A stretch of DNA of 64,000 nucleotides, from positions 6,732,501-6,796,500 of the forward strand of contig NZ_JADBEG010000001.1 of assembly GCF_014873755.1 (NCBI RefSeq), written 5' to 3'. The number at the start of each line of letters is the position of its first letter. The stretch's first letter is position 1. The translations under genes and the position numbers were made by a program. The notes under the pieces were generated by a model. It was not told where the DNA came from and made no database searches. It was given only the letters and a program-made list of their open reading frames with translations. Positions 15,350 to 31,943 of this stretch are shown here, one piece after another. This stretch comes from Amycolatopsis lexingtonensis. GTDB lineage: Bacteria; Actinomycetota; Actinomycetes; Mycobacteriales; Pseudonocardiaceae.

Positions 15350-15997
15350 TCAGAGCCGGTCGGCGGCGCGGTCCACCACCCACCCGGTCGCCGGGACCGC
15401 GGCCAGCGCGGCGCAGAACCCCCCGACCGCATCCGTCGGGTAGTGCGCCCCCAAGGCCACCTCGGCCCAGCCCATCGCGATCCCGGCGATCAGCGCCAAG
15501 CCGAGGACCAGCGGCACCGCGATCGCACGCCCGAGACCCAGCCGATCGACCAGGAGCAGGCCGATGACCAGCGCGAGCGCCGTGGCCAAGGCCGTGTGCC
15601 CGCTCGGGTACGACAGGAACTCGCCGTGGATGGTGCGCCCGACGATCGGCTTCAGGACCGTCGTCACCGCCACGGTGACCAGGACGCCCAGCACGGTCAG
15701 CACGGCCGTTCGCGCCCGGCGGGCCAGGAAGCACACGCCCGCGAGCAGGGCGACCAGCACGACCGATCCCACCGGTTCGCCGCCGAAGTCGATGACCAGC
15801 GCGACGTACCGCCACGGTGGCTCGACCCCGTCGAGCGACGGCAAAACGGCGGCGTCGATCCCCGTCAACCCGGAGTCGTGGAAGTGGAGGATGCCGAGCG
15901 CGACGAGTACCGCGGTCGCCAGCGCTCCCGACATCGCGAGCGGGGTGCGCAGCGCGGCCGGCAGGACCGCGGGTGCCGTCCGGACCAGCTGCTTCAC
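15350..15997 (-). CDS. PAP2-family membrane phosphatase
   Basis: The 215-aa protein has about five or six membrane helices and the three PAP2 motifs: KPIVGR, YPSGHTALA and GAHYPTDAVGG. Members dephosphorylate lipid phosphates such as undecaprenyl pyrophosphate at the outer face of the membrane. It is the last gene of the minus-strand polysaccharide operon; its start overlaps the stop of the GT4 gene. It probably recycles the undecaprenyl carrier freed by polymerisation. Confidence 0.85.
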   Translation of the reverse strand: MKQLVRTAPAVLPAALRTPLAMSGALATAVLVALGILHFHDSGLTGIDAAVLPSLDGVEPPWRYVALVIDFGGEPVGSVVLVALLAGVCFLARRARTAVLTVLGVLVTVAVTTVLKPIVGRTIHGEFLSYPSGHTALATALALVIGLLLVDRLGLGRAIAVPLVLGLALIAGIAMGWAEVALGAHYPTDAVGGFCAALAAVPATGWVVDRAADRL

Positions 15998-17163
15998 GCC
16001 TCGATCGCCGCCTTGTACCCGGCGATCAGCCGGTCGAGGCCGACGGCCGGGGTGAAGTCCTTCTCGTACCGGACGCGGGCCGCGTCGCCCATCTCGCGAT
16101 TGCGGTCACCGACGATCTCGCGCAGTCGCTCCGCGAGCGACACCTCGTCGTTCGGCTGGTGCAGGAGGCCGGTGACGCCGTCCTCGACGAGCTCGGGGAA
16201 TGCCCCGTGGGCGGCCGCGACCGTGGGCACGCCCGCCGCCATCGCCTCGACCACCACGAGGCCGAACGCCTCCAGCCACGTCGACGGGGCCACCACCGCC
16301 ACCGCGTCGGCCGTGAGCGCGCGGCACTCGGCCTTGGTGCGGAGACCCACGTACGAGACGTCGGAACGTCCGGCCGCCCAGGCCGTGACCTCGTCCTGCA
16401 TCGGGCCCGTGCCGGCGATGACCAGCGGAACGCCCAGGGCGCCGCCGAGGCGGTCCCAGGCCCGCATCAGCAGGCCGACGCCCTTCTCCTCGGTGATCCG
16501 GCCGAGGAACAGGACGTGCGTCCCGTCGCCGGTGCGGCGGACGCCGGGGTCGGTGACGAAGTTGTGCTTCACCACCATCCGCTCGCCGGGCATCCCGGCC
16601 GACACCAGGAGGTCGCGTTGCGCCGCCGAAATGCAGAAGAACCGCGAAACGCCCGTCCACCACCGGCGGCGGTTCGCGACCATGCTCGCCGCCATCGGGA
16701 GCGTGGCCGCGCTCGAACCGCGGTAGCAGCCGTGCTTCACCGCCGGCAACGGCGAGCCGCCGACGCACTCGGTGCAGATGCGGCCGTCGCGGTGGAGTGT
16801 GCCGGGCGGGCAGACCATCGTGTAGTTGTGCAGCGTCGCGACCGCGGGCACCCCCGCGTCCGCGCAGGCGGCGACCACCGACGGCGACAGCAGCGGGAAC
16901 GTGTTGTGGATGTGCACGACGTCCGGGCGCTTCGCGCGCAGCCGGGCGGAGAGTTCCTTCCGCACCGCCGGGTTCCACGGAACCATCAGCGGCACCGCCG
17001 CCTTGCGGGCCAGCGGCATGGCCGCGATGTCGTCGCTGCGGCGTTCGAAGAGCGACACCTCGTGACCGCCCTCGGCCAGCAGCGAGACTTCGGCGTCGAC
17101 GACGTTGTTCTCGCCGCTCGGCTGCTCGGACCGGTACCGGTTGTGCACCACGAGCACCCTCAC
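15994..17163 (-). CDS. Family 4 glycosyltransferase
   Basis: The 389-aa GT-B protein reads VRVLVVHNRYRSEQPSGENN at the start. It then has DVVHIHNTFPLLSPSV, a Cys pair region with CPPGTLHRDGRICTECVGG, and the donor-site motif EAFGLVVVEAMAAGVPTVAA with its EX7E pattern. The GTG overlaps the stop of the polymerase gene (GTGA at 17160-17163). It should add a sugar from a nucleotide donor to the lipid-linked repeat unit in the cytoplasm. Together with the GT4 at 29456 it gives this operon two transferases. Confidence 0.86.
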   Translation of the reverse strand: MRVLVVHNRYRSEQPSGENNVVDAEVSLLAEGGHEVSLFERRSDDIAAMPLARKAAVPLMVPWNPAVRKELSARLRAKRPDVVHIHNTFPLLSPSVVAACADAGVPAVATLHNYTMVCPPGTLHRDGRICTECVGGSPLPAVKHGCYRGSSAATLPMAASMVANRRRWWTGVSRFFCISAAQRDLLVSAGMPGERMVVKHNFVTDPGVRRTGDGTHVLFLGRITEEKGVGLLMRAWDRLGGALGVPLVIAGTGPMQDEVTAWAAGRSDVSYVGLRTKAECRALTADAVAVVAPSTWLEAFGLVVVEAMAAGVPTVAAAHGAFPELVEDGVTGLLHQPNDEVSLAERLREIVGDRNREMGDAARVRYEKDFTPAVGLDRLIAGYKAAIEA

Positions 17164-30646: not shown

Positions 30647-31943
30647 ATCCCTCTTCAAGGCGACGCGTCGCCGCGTCGGGCAGGCGGACGAGGTCGACGA
30701 GCACCCGGTCGCCGCCGTGCGGCAGGGCCGCCAGCACGTCCGGGTCCTTGCAGCCGACGACGAGGACGTCGGCGTGGTCCATGACTTCTTCGACGGACCC
30801 GGCGAGCAGCTGGCCGAGGTGCGGCAACCGGCCCTCGATGTATTCGCGGTTCGCGCCCATCAGCCGCGAGAGGCTGACGTTCGCGTCGTAGATCTTGAGG
30901 TCGTAGCCCTTGCCGAGCAGCTTCTCGGCCAGCTCGACCAGCGGGGACTCGCGCAGGTCGTCGGTGCCCGGCTTGAACGACAGCCCGAACAGCCCGACCT
31001 TGCGCTTGCCGGTGCGCGCGACCAGGTCGAACGCGCGCTGCAGGTGCTCGTCGTTGGACGCGAGCACGTGCGACAGGATCGGCACGTTGACGTCGGCGCG
31101 GTGCGCGGCGTAGACCAGCCCGCGCAGGTCCTTCGGCAGGCACGAGCCGCCGAAGGCGAACCCGGGCTTGAGGTAGGCCGGGCTGACGTTGAGCTTGGTG
31201 TCGGCGAGGAAGACGTCGATCACCTGGTGCGAGTCGAGGCCCAGCGCCCGGCAGATCGAGCCGAGCTCGTTCGCGAAGCCGATCTTCAGGCCGTGGAAGG
31301 AGTTGTCGGCGTACTTCGTCATTTCCGCGACCGGGATCGGCACGCGGAAGACCGGCCCGGGCAGGCCCTCGTACAGCGCCGCGACGGCGCCGCCGCTGGC
31401 TTCGTCGATCTCGCCGATCACCGTCTTCGGCGGGTCGAAGAAGTCGCGGACGCTGGTGCCCTCGCGCAGGAACTCGGGGTTCACCGCGACGCCGAAGTCG
31501 ACGCCCGCCGTGCGCCCCGACGCCTTTTCCAGGATCGGGATCAGCAGGTCCAGGCAGGTGCCGGGCAGCATCGTGCTGCGGAAGACGACCGTGTGCCGCT
31601 CGGTCTTGGCCGCGATCGCCTCGCCGATTTCCTCGGCGACGCGCTCGAGGTAGACCGTCGAGAGGCTGCCGTTCGGCGCCGACGGCGTGCCGACGCAGAC
31701 CAGCGAAATCTCGCTGTCGGCGACAGCTTCCGCGACGTCGGTCGTGGCTCTCAGCGCGCCGCTCGCGACGACTTCGGCGGTCAGCTCGCCGATCCGCTCC
31801 TCGACCACCGGCGCCTTGCCGGCGGCGATGAGATCGATCTTGACCGGGTTGACGTCCACGCCGACCACCCGGTGCCCTTGCCCCGCCAGGCACGCGGCGG
31901 AGACACAACCCACGTAACCGAGCCCGAAGACACTGATCTTCAC
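30627..31943 (-). CDS. GDP-mannose 6-dehydrogenase-like (AlgD-type) nucleotide-sugar dehydrogenase
   Basis: The 438-aa protein starts MKISVFGLGYVGCVSAACLA. It carries RHTVVFRSTMLPGTCLDLLI, VAEMTKYADNSFHG, the catalytic Cys in GFAFGGSCLPKD, and VGLFGLSFKPGTDDLRESPL. By eye it follows Pseudomonas AlgD along its length, including the short tail ending in Trp, more closely than it does UDP-glucose dehydrogenases. AlgD makes GDP-mannuronate, the alginate precursor, by two NAD-dependent oxidations. GTG start with ggagg 7 nt upstream. It heads the minus-strand operon. Substrate preference is inferred, not proven. Confidence 0.85.
   Translation of the reverse strand: MKISVFGLGYVGCVSAACLAGQGHRVVGVDVNPVKIDLIAAGKAPVVEERIGELTAEVVASGALRATTDVAEAVADSEISLVCVGTPSAPNGSLSTVYLERVAEEIGEAIAAKTERHTVVFRSTMLPGTCLDLLIPILEKASGRTAGVDFGVAVNPEFLREGTSVRDFFDPPKTVIGEIDEASGGAVAALYEGLPGPVFRVPIPVAEMTKYADNSFHGLKIGFANELGSICRALGLDSHQVIDVFLADTKLNVSPAYLKPGFAFGGSCLPKDLRGLVYAAHRADVNVPILSHVLASNDEHLQRAFDLVARTGKRKVGLFGLSFKPGTDDLRESPLVELAEKLLGKGYDLKIYDANVSLSRLMGANREYIEGRLPHLGQLLAGSVEEVMDHADVLVVGCKDPDVLAALPHGGDRVLVDLVRLPDAATRRLEEGYAGLAW

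Follow-up and report, generated by a model that had tools for sequence, protein, structure and literature searches.

The window analysed here is a stretch of 64,000 nt from an Amycolatopsis chromosome (a genome of 10.74 Mb in a single contig), and this work concerns a polysaccharide gene cluster within it that includes an AlgD-type nucleotide-sugar dehydrogenase. Eleven genes lie on the minus strand between positions 31943 and 15350, at the coordinates and with the families that an initial annotation of the sequence had given them; UDPG_MGDP_dh, the GT4 glycosyltransferase (GT) domains, Asn_synthase, ADH_zinc_N, GFO_IDH_MocA, Hepar_II_III, Beta_helix, and PAP2 all scored over their Pfam cut-offs. 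The genes had been described as nearly all stop-start overlapped, and overlaps of − 4 to − 32 nt do occur at six of the ten junctions, but "nearly all" was overstated, as the other four are gaps of 9, 31, 109, and 124 nt. Similarly, the genes of the proposed eleven-gene operon are real, but they form only half of a larger two-part cluster, which is completed by a convergent plus-strand block (1649–13535) that had been missed.

The reference cluster used for comparison was an annotated run of 22 contiguous genes in Streptomyces sp. KN37, 21 of them codirectional and the PAP2 gene convergent at the cluster end. Its order is sugar transferase, nucleotide-sugar dehydrogenase, GT4, two Wzz genes, AsnB, bi-domain oxidoreductase, alginate-lyase family protein and beta-helix protein, followed by O-antigen ligase, GT, S-adenosylmethionine (SAM) methyltransferase, glucose-1-phosphate cytidylyltransferase, PIG-L, short-chain dehydrogenase/reductase (SDR) and DUF4910 protein, and finally a hypothetical protein, GT2, pyruvyl transferase, RfbC, GSA aminomutase, and the PAP2 gene. 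All 22 have homologues in the Amycolatopsis genome (47–83% identity): the sugar transferase is found at 1.27 Mb, while the other 21 lie in the window, split between the minus block and the plus block (1649–11954), with a second beta-helix gene (12054–13535) at the end of the latter. We interpret the two convergent blocks as a single Wzx/Wzy-dependent pathway whose product would be a surface heteropolysaccharide carrying a mannuronate-type residue, and assign this interpretation a probability of roughly 0.68. The features are collected in Table 1.

Table 1 Genes of the two-part cluster and an adjoining deacetylase gene (window coordinates)
Feature	Coordinates	Strand	Evidence
AlgD-type nucleotide-sugar (GDP-mannose) 6-dehydrogenase, 438 aa	30627..31943	-	Pfam/NCBIfam, PDB 1MFZ, signature residues, tree
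GT4 glycosyltransferase, dehydrogenase partner, candidate mannuronosyltransferase	29456..30658	-	Pfam, position, identity
Wzz-like polysaccharide co-polymerase 1	27985..29346	-	Pfam Wzz 25.5 bits (equal to cut-off)
Wzz-like polysaccharide co-polymerase 2	26222..27988	-	GTG start at 27988; Pfam Wzz 39.1 bits (scanned 26222-27979)
AsnB-type amidotransferase	24280..26190	-	Pfam/NCBIfam; nearest PDB relative (phmmer) 7ylz, a hydroxyamidotransferase
Bi-domain oxidoreductase (ADH + Gfo/Idh/MocA)	22106..24283	-	Pfam; KN37 homologue (74%) annotated bi-domain-containing oxidoreductase
Heparinase II/III-fold enzyme (predicted uronate lyase or epimerase superfamily)	19948..21981	-	Pfam, fold
Right-handed beta-helix lipoprotein	18412..19938	-	Pfam, fold; lipobox-like Cys by pattern
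Wzy-like polymerase / O-antigen-ligase family membrane protein	17160..18422	-	Wzy_C 28.2 bits, sub-cutoff
Second GT4 glycosyltransferase	15994..17163	-	Domain scan (as 15994-17121)
PAP2 phosphatase	15350..15997	-	Pfam; KN37 homologue 57%
Sugar C-methyltransferase (Methyltransf_13/14)	1649..2881	+	Domains; 80% to KN37
Sugar-1-phosphate cytidylyltransferase-like	2883..3674	+	TIGR02623 189 bits, below cut-off 300; 83% to KN37
PIG-L family deacetylase	3671..4318	+	Domain; 78% to KN37
NDP-sugar SDR epimerase/dehydratase	4324..5343	+	Domain; 78% to KN37
DUF4910/DUF2172/HTH_47 protein, start approximate	5331..6623	+	Domains; 77% to KN37
Probable Wzx (MOP) flippase	6620..7954	+	Hydrophobic polytopic ORF, 9 peaks; place; source names
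GT2-family glycosyltransferase	7962..8906	+	Domain; 73% to KN37
Polysaccharide pyruvyl transferase	8906..10087	+	PF04230 90.4 bits (scanned from 8912); start inferred from KN37; 66%
RmlC-type dTDP-sugar epimerase family protein	10084..10632	+	Domain; 68% to KN37
Class III aminotransferase (PRK06209 type)	10629..11954	+	726 bits, over cut-off; 78% to KN37
Second beta-helix protein	12054..13535	+	62% identical to first beta-helix
Polysaccharide deacetylase (NodB-type), present in a subset of loci	33095..33742	-	Domain scan

AlgD is the dehydrogenase known from alginate synthesis, and the "AlgD-like" label originally given to the dehydrogenase agrees with its score, phylogeny, and signature residues. 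Against PDB, it matched AlgD (1MFZ) with 487 bits and the next enzyme with 234 bits, and its identity was 52% to Pseudomonas aeruginosa AlgD vs. 37–39% to two UDP-glucose-type enzymes. In a tree of 28 sequences (L154 left out), these two enzymes were split from all AlgD-type sequences, the characterised AlgD included, with a support of 0.998; the Shinella and Rhizobium sequences formed a group with AlgD (0.99), the main group of actinomycetes received 0.995, and the node joining both was weaker (0.756). Residues H217 and K250-L251-N252 are kept in P. aeruginosa AlgD, in 81 of 81 actinomycete sequences (the window plus 80 loci, i.e., the best 80 of 425 relatives, retrieved by similarity to the dehydrogenase itself) and in four alphaproteobacterial and Deinococcus homologues, whereas the UGDH-like enzyme of the same genome does not show this AlgD-type signature, having L217 and lacking residues 251–252. 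The catalytic Cys268 is kept, as are K210, N214, N252, E161, and K324. Taken together, the sequence comparisons support membership in the AlgD (GDP-mannose 6-dehydrogenase) family. A mannose-1-phosphate guanylyltransferase is also encoded in the genome (618.7 bits, over cut-off).

Gene order in related genomes, a check that the initial annotation had proposed, was conserved: the first six genes were collinear in 61 of the 80 loci, and the GT4 gene directly followed the dehydrogenase in all 80. In 17 further regions, the next six genes (AsnB, bi-domain oxidoreductase, heparinase, beta-helix, Wzy, and second GT) were always present and followed the window order in 16, the exception being L122, where Wzy and beta-helix genes lie beyond the second GT; a search of 17 genomes for the Wzy-like gene found it in every one. 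Given both orders, the arrangement is not due to chance. Among 150 genomes of the family (our own included, many of them related and hence not independent), strong heparinase matches occurred in 35, beta-helix matches in 35 (plus three weak ones, G065, G068, and G169, excluded from the strong count) and AlgD in 42; the strong heparinase and beta-helix sets are the same 35 genomes, all of which have AlgD. A phylum-wide survey of 396 genomes with the beta-helix query returned 40 matches, of which eight were strong (our own and seven of one genus), and thus the cluster is patchily distributed. The heparinase-fold protein was 97% identical to that of an A. lexingtonensis record and 93% to that of A. 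eburnea.

In L152–L154, AlgD (50%) and GT4 (46–48%) are both divergent and both located behind the Wzz genes, with the AsnB and bi-domain proteins still at 72–81% identity, which suggests that AlgD and GT4 were exchanged as a pair. As a separate observation, the divergent AlgD-type gene (about 50%) of L152–L155 lies between the Wzz genes and AsnB and not at the operon head. Elsewhere, a PF14907 nucleotidyltransferase-like gene adjoins the second GT in Amycolatopsis marina, Prauserella shujinwangii, and Actinophytocola oryzae (L123, L124, and L126), where Streptomyces has the C-methyltransferase.

The AlgD-GT4-heparinase trio was found again outside the actinomycetes, in Shinella, two Rhizobium, and Deinococcus records, with identities to the window of 40–52% (AlgD), 47–52% (GT4), and 30–34% (heparinase); of the annotated GT genes compared in these four records, just one other matched, at 23%. 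Moreover, an AlgD-type gene (41–80% identity) lay within about 10 kb in each of the 10 strongest heparinase records of the plasmid collection (H11–H30 left out of this count), three of which are from Streptomyces and two of which are Shinella plasmids of equal length. We therefore read AlgD, GT4, and the heparinase-fold enzyme as a functional set. O-antigen-ligase (Wzy-type) genes and flippase-named genes accompany the homologous trio in three of the four records each, comparable to the Wzy-like and probable Wzx genes of the window; unlike the window, no beta-helix or bi-domain gene is annotated in the stretches covered, and the three rhizobial versions differ further by a cellulase-family gene.

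The folds of uronate-acting enzymes that had been proposed for the heparinase II/III and beta-helix proteins were recovered. The former has a predicted toroid plus beta-sandwich fold with the active-site Asn-His, Tyr, and His (PL12/PL15/PL17/PL33-like superfamily); heparan, hyaluronan, and alginate (PL17) lyases tie as its structural neighbours, and the dermatan sulfate epimerase 6hzn shares the heparinase II/III fold. No signal-peptide-like stretch was found in it, and it is a predicted member of the uronate lyase or epimerase superfamily. For the beta-helix lipoprotein, the nearest folds are the AlgE6 and AlgE4 epimerases. No sequence relative of it was found in PDB, and its profile alignment with the AlgE A-modules was not significant; residue mapping was consequently dropped and the presence of the motif alone is reported: the DPH(E/D) catalytic motif of AlgE/AlgG epimerases occurs in 0 of 24 rows (motif and residues of mannuronan C5-epimerases from PMC7385640 and PMC11468063, in the portions of these articles available, and from PDB chains). 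Two further paralogues of the beta-helix protein, about 62–63% identical, are encoded in the genome, one closing the plus block and the other far away (G000:C1:4933968-4935374).

These genes also bear on a stricter reading, in which a Wzx/Wzy route would yield true alginate or a closely related beta-1,4-(mannuronate/guluronate) polymer. Alginate itself is polymerised by a membrane GT2 synthase, which forms beta linkages. The AlgD-type enzyme, the tie with PL17 alginate lyases, and the AlgE-like beta-helix fold speak for such a polymer, yet the heparan and hyaluronan lyases tie equally, the DPH motif is missing, and no Alg8/Alg44-like synthase was named among the cluster genes in general Pfam/NCBIfam scans (the rest of the genome was not searched). 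In addition, the partner of AlgD is a GT4, i.e., a member of a retaining family, and thus an alpha linkage is expected. The cluster also has four sugar transferases in total, a pyruvyl transferase, and the genes of a second sugar pathway, which comprise those for a cytidylyltransferase-like protein, an SDR, a C-methyltransferase, an RmlC-type epimerase, and an aminotransferase. The "alginate-like" structure initially suggested is hence not supported: we consider alginate itself highly improbable, and the gene content agrees better with a heteropolysaccharide that contains a mannuronate-type residue. The cluster probably builds a surface sugar polymer with a mannuronic-acid-type sugar by a route other than that of alginate.

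Wzx/Wzy-type assembly had been guessed without the parts now found through the Streptomyces comparison, namely an initiating transferase, a further GT, and a probable Wzx. As the plus block includes the probable Wzx, assembly is most likely Wzx/Wzy-type. The PF02397 initiating transferase has a single match in the genome (G000:C1:1271177, 63% to the KN37 cluster gene), and its gene adjoins AlgD in L104 and KN37. In the Amycolatopsis genome, this only PF02397 gene (L134:8025-9761) is flanked by an SsgA-like gene on one side and a nitroreductase plus threonyl-tRNA-synthetase-type gene on the other, unlinked to the cluster, which it probably serves. The two Wzz-like proteins scored at and above the cut-off of 25.5 bits. 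The 6620–7954 product, counterpart of the KN37 "hypothetical" protein, gave weak sequence evidence against Pfam Polysacc_synt_3 (E = 3.9 here, E = 0.25 for the KN37 homologue), its hhalign comparison with four annotated flippases was not significant (probability 0.5%), and a PDB profile search returned one chance match (E 0.23); its topology, its place, and the source names of some homologues (O-antigen/teichoic acid export membrane protein) make it a probable Wzx flippase. Open reading frame (ORF) 6550–7965, considered for the same gap, is in the wrong, arginine-rich frame. The genome's only other MOP-type match is weak and distant, and its ORF (L135:8691-10070) gave no Pfam match. ABC transporter genes adjoin one Streptomyces and one Prauserella locus, and none was noticed as an exporter in the window's cluster.

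The same machinery bears on two further explanations. The genes could decorate a small natural product instead of serving a polysaccharide pathway, since three of them (C-methyltransferase, RmlC-type epimerase, and aminotransferase) are similar to genes that tailor deoxysugars and a polyketide synthase adjoins the KN37 cluster; however, that very cluster contains Wzz-like, Wzy-like, initiating transferase, and PAP2 genes, and no polyketide synthase appeared among the window genes scanned, a selection of the ORFs from about 1.6 to 47.6 kb, leaving this a very slim prospect. Alternatively, the uronate could belong to a wall-anchored glycopolymer, as its cap, side branch, or linker, and not to the backbone of a secreted exopolysaccharide, a possibility that overlaps with the heteropolysaccharide interpretation and does not exclude it. 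The Gram-positive host, the CsaB-like pyruvyl transferase (65.5 bits, below cut-off), and the teichuronic-type wall polymer known from Streptomyces (PMC13274773, available in part) are in line with it, while two Wzz-like and one Wzy-like protein point to a long polymer; we give it a fairly low probability.

Several observations weigh against the proposed pathway. Regarding assembly, Wzy_C scored 28.2 bits in 17160–18422, below its cut-off of 31.7, and PF13440, the sole flippase model searched genome-wide, gave no match over cut-off vs. its presence in 14 of 14 control genomes. Regarding conservation, the six-gene order is missing from 19 of the 80 loci (Kutzneria, Lentzea, Streptosporangium, and relatives), which carry another AlgD-GT4 cluster (deacetylase, GNAT, Wzy_C, and beta-helix genes in those scanned), and seven of the 42 AlgD-bearing family genomes have no strong lyase-type match, two of them (L156 and L158) holding a lyase match of 33–36%; both counts imply that AlgD also has a role in other clusters. 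L155 lacks a GT4 match beside its divergent AlgD, and its matching GT4 (61%) is located at the other end, which speaks against a joint AlgD-GT4 exchange there. Regarding the product, the mannuronic acid reported for a Streptomyces exopolysaccharide (PMC10317929, available in part), which makes such a residue plausible, rests on high-performance liquid chromatography, and another Streptomyces exopolysaccharide held galacturonic and not mannuronic acid according to the accessible text of PMC13235160. Regarding the enzyme, Y256, R259, and C213 of AlgD are replaced by A, K, and D in the window dehydrogenase (A256 and D213 in 81 of 81 sequences, R259 kept in 67 of 81), and among seven further, more divergent sequences K250 is kept in just two, with H217 and L251-N252 kept in all. 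As the three AlgD residues were named from docking and loop work, and C213A raised the Vmax of AlgD (PMC10619135, partial text), we counted them as supporting and not defining.

These substitutions would also suit a dehydrogenase of the same superfamily that makes another uronate (UDP-glucuronate or a UDP-aminouronate), in which case the product would be an ordinary glucuronate-type or teichuronic-acid-like polysaccharide, similar to the S. griseus teichuronic-acid-like polymer built from UDP-sugars (PMC13274773). The equivalog models AglM (304 bits) and TuaD (222 bits) point the same way, though both are far under their cut-offs, while AlgD scores twice as high as any UDP-sugar enzyme in PDB, the UDP-glucose-type enzymes split off in the tree, and the genome's own UGDH-like enzyme lacks the AlgD-type signature. 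We thus consider another uronate unlikely.

For the mannuronate-type heteropolysaccharide, we infer the following substrates, linkage, order of steps, and product. The initiating transferase, coded elsewhere on the chromosome, would load the first sugar onto the lipid carrier; the AlgD-type enzyme would oxidise GDP-mannose to GDP-mannuronate, and the adjoining GT4 would add mannuronate, presumably alpha-linked, to the lipid-linked repeat. The second GT4 and the GT2-family enzyme would add other sugars, one of them probably C-methyl-branched and derived from the plus-strand genes; with three GTs, the initiating transferase, and the second sugar pathway, the repeat may have about four units. Amidation of a carboxyl group by AsnB and addition of pyruvate by the pyruvyl transferase are possible modifications. 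The probable Wzx would flip the repeat and the Wzy-like protein polymerise it, with the two Wzz-like proteins setting chain length and PAP2 recycling the carrier. Processing of the uronate, by lyase or C5-epimerase chemistry, would fall to the heparinase-fold enzyme and the beta-helix lipoprotein.

Around the cluster, a GH75 chitosanase gene (32203–32898, minus strand) and the NodB-type deacetylase gene lie just upstream of the dehydrogenase. GH75 is present in 22 of the 80 loci, all with the six-gene order, and the deacetylase in 37 of 80 (37 of 73 when counting loci with > 3.5 kb upstream); the latter is 42% and 38% identical to deacetylases in the Shinella and Rhizobium AlgD clusters. This association hints at an amino sugar in some versions of the cluster. 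The DUF4910/DUF2172/HTH_47 gene is kept inside the sugar block of both the window and KN37. To the right of the cluster, PPE-family and EspG genes (45537–47598) seem to belong to a type VII secretion locus.

Compared with known systems, the cluster shares with the Pseudomonas/Azotobacter alg operon the AlgD-type dehydrogenase and a uronate-lyase-fold enzyme, with a beta-helix protein nearest to the AlgE fold, and differs from it in the Wzy/Wzz-like genes, the several GTs, the GT4 partner, the second sugar pathway, and a beta-helix protein without DPH. With Wzx/Wzy exopolysaccharide clusters it has in common an initiating polyprenyl sugar transferase, GTs, Wzz-like and Wzy-like proteins, and a probable Wzx; the window adds AlgD-type dehydrogenase, GT4, and heparinase-fold enzyme, and its flippase candidate is too divergent for Pfam. 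The S. griseus polymer (utr genes) is likewise a uronate-containing actinomycete surface polymer, but UDP-ManNAc3NAcA is made there from UDP-GlcNAc, and AlgD, a lyase, or a beta-helix protein are not mentioned in the available portion of PMC13274773. There is also some resemblance to XrtA/PEP-CTERM loci, with the AsnB-like protein reaching 429 bits for TIGR03108 and the first GT4 89 bits for stp3, both well below their cut-offs (817 and 442). No published description of the AlgD-GT4-heparinase cluster was found in the literature searched, which did not cover most subscription journals. Judging from sequence, what is new is the AlgD-type branch inside a putative Wzx/Wzy-type heteropolysaccharide pathway; the Wzx/Wzy pathway itself is known.

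A conserved AlgD-GT4-lyase set in actinomycete Wzx/Wzy-type clusters would, if true, mean mannuronate-type polymers where none have been assigned, and the cluster would yield new uronate-acting enzymes. A broader and tentative view is that AlgD-type GDP-mannuronate extends beyond alginate: a dedicated retaining GT4 would put alpha-mannuronate into Wzx/Wzy heteropolysaccharides of actinomycetes, rhizobia, and Deinococcus, the heparinase-fold enzyme, for want of a signal peptide, would be a cytoplasmic C5-epimerase or editing lyase acting on the lipid-linked repeat, the AlgE-fold lipoprotein would remodel the finished chain outside, and such actinomycete clusters would be a candidate source of the brown-algal alginate genes. 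On this last point, a review holds that brown algae acquired the alginate-specific steps from an actinobacterium (PMC8307928), and a 2024 study reports that an actinobacterial origin is not strongly supported for the brown-algal dehydrogenase (PMC11468063), as far as the accessible portions of both sources go. A real actinomycete GDP-mannuronate pathway would, if true, be a concrete comparator for this debate on the origin of brown-algal alginate.

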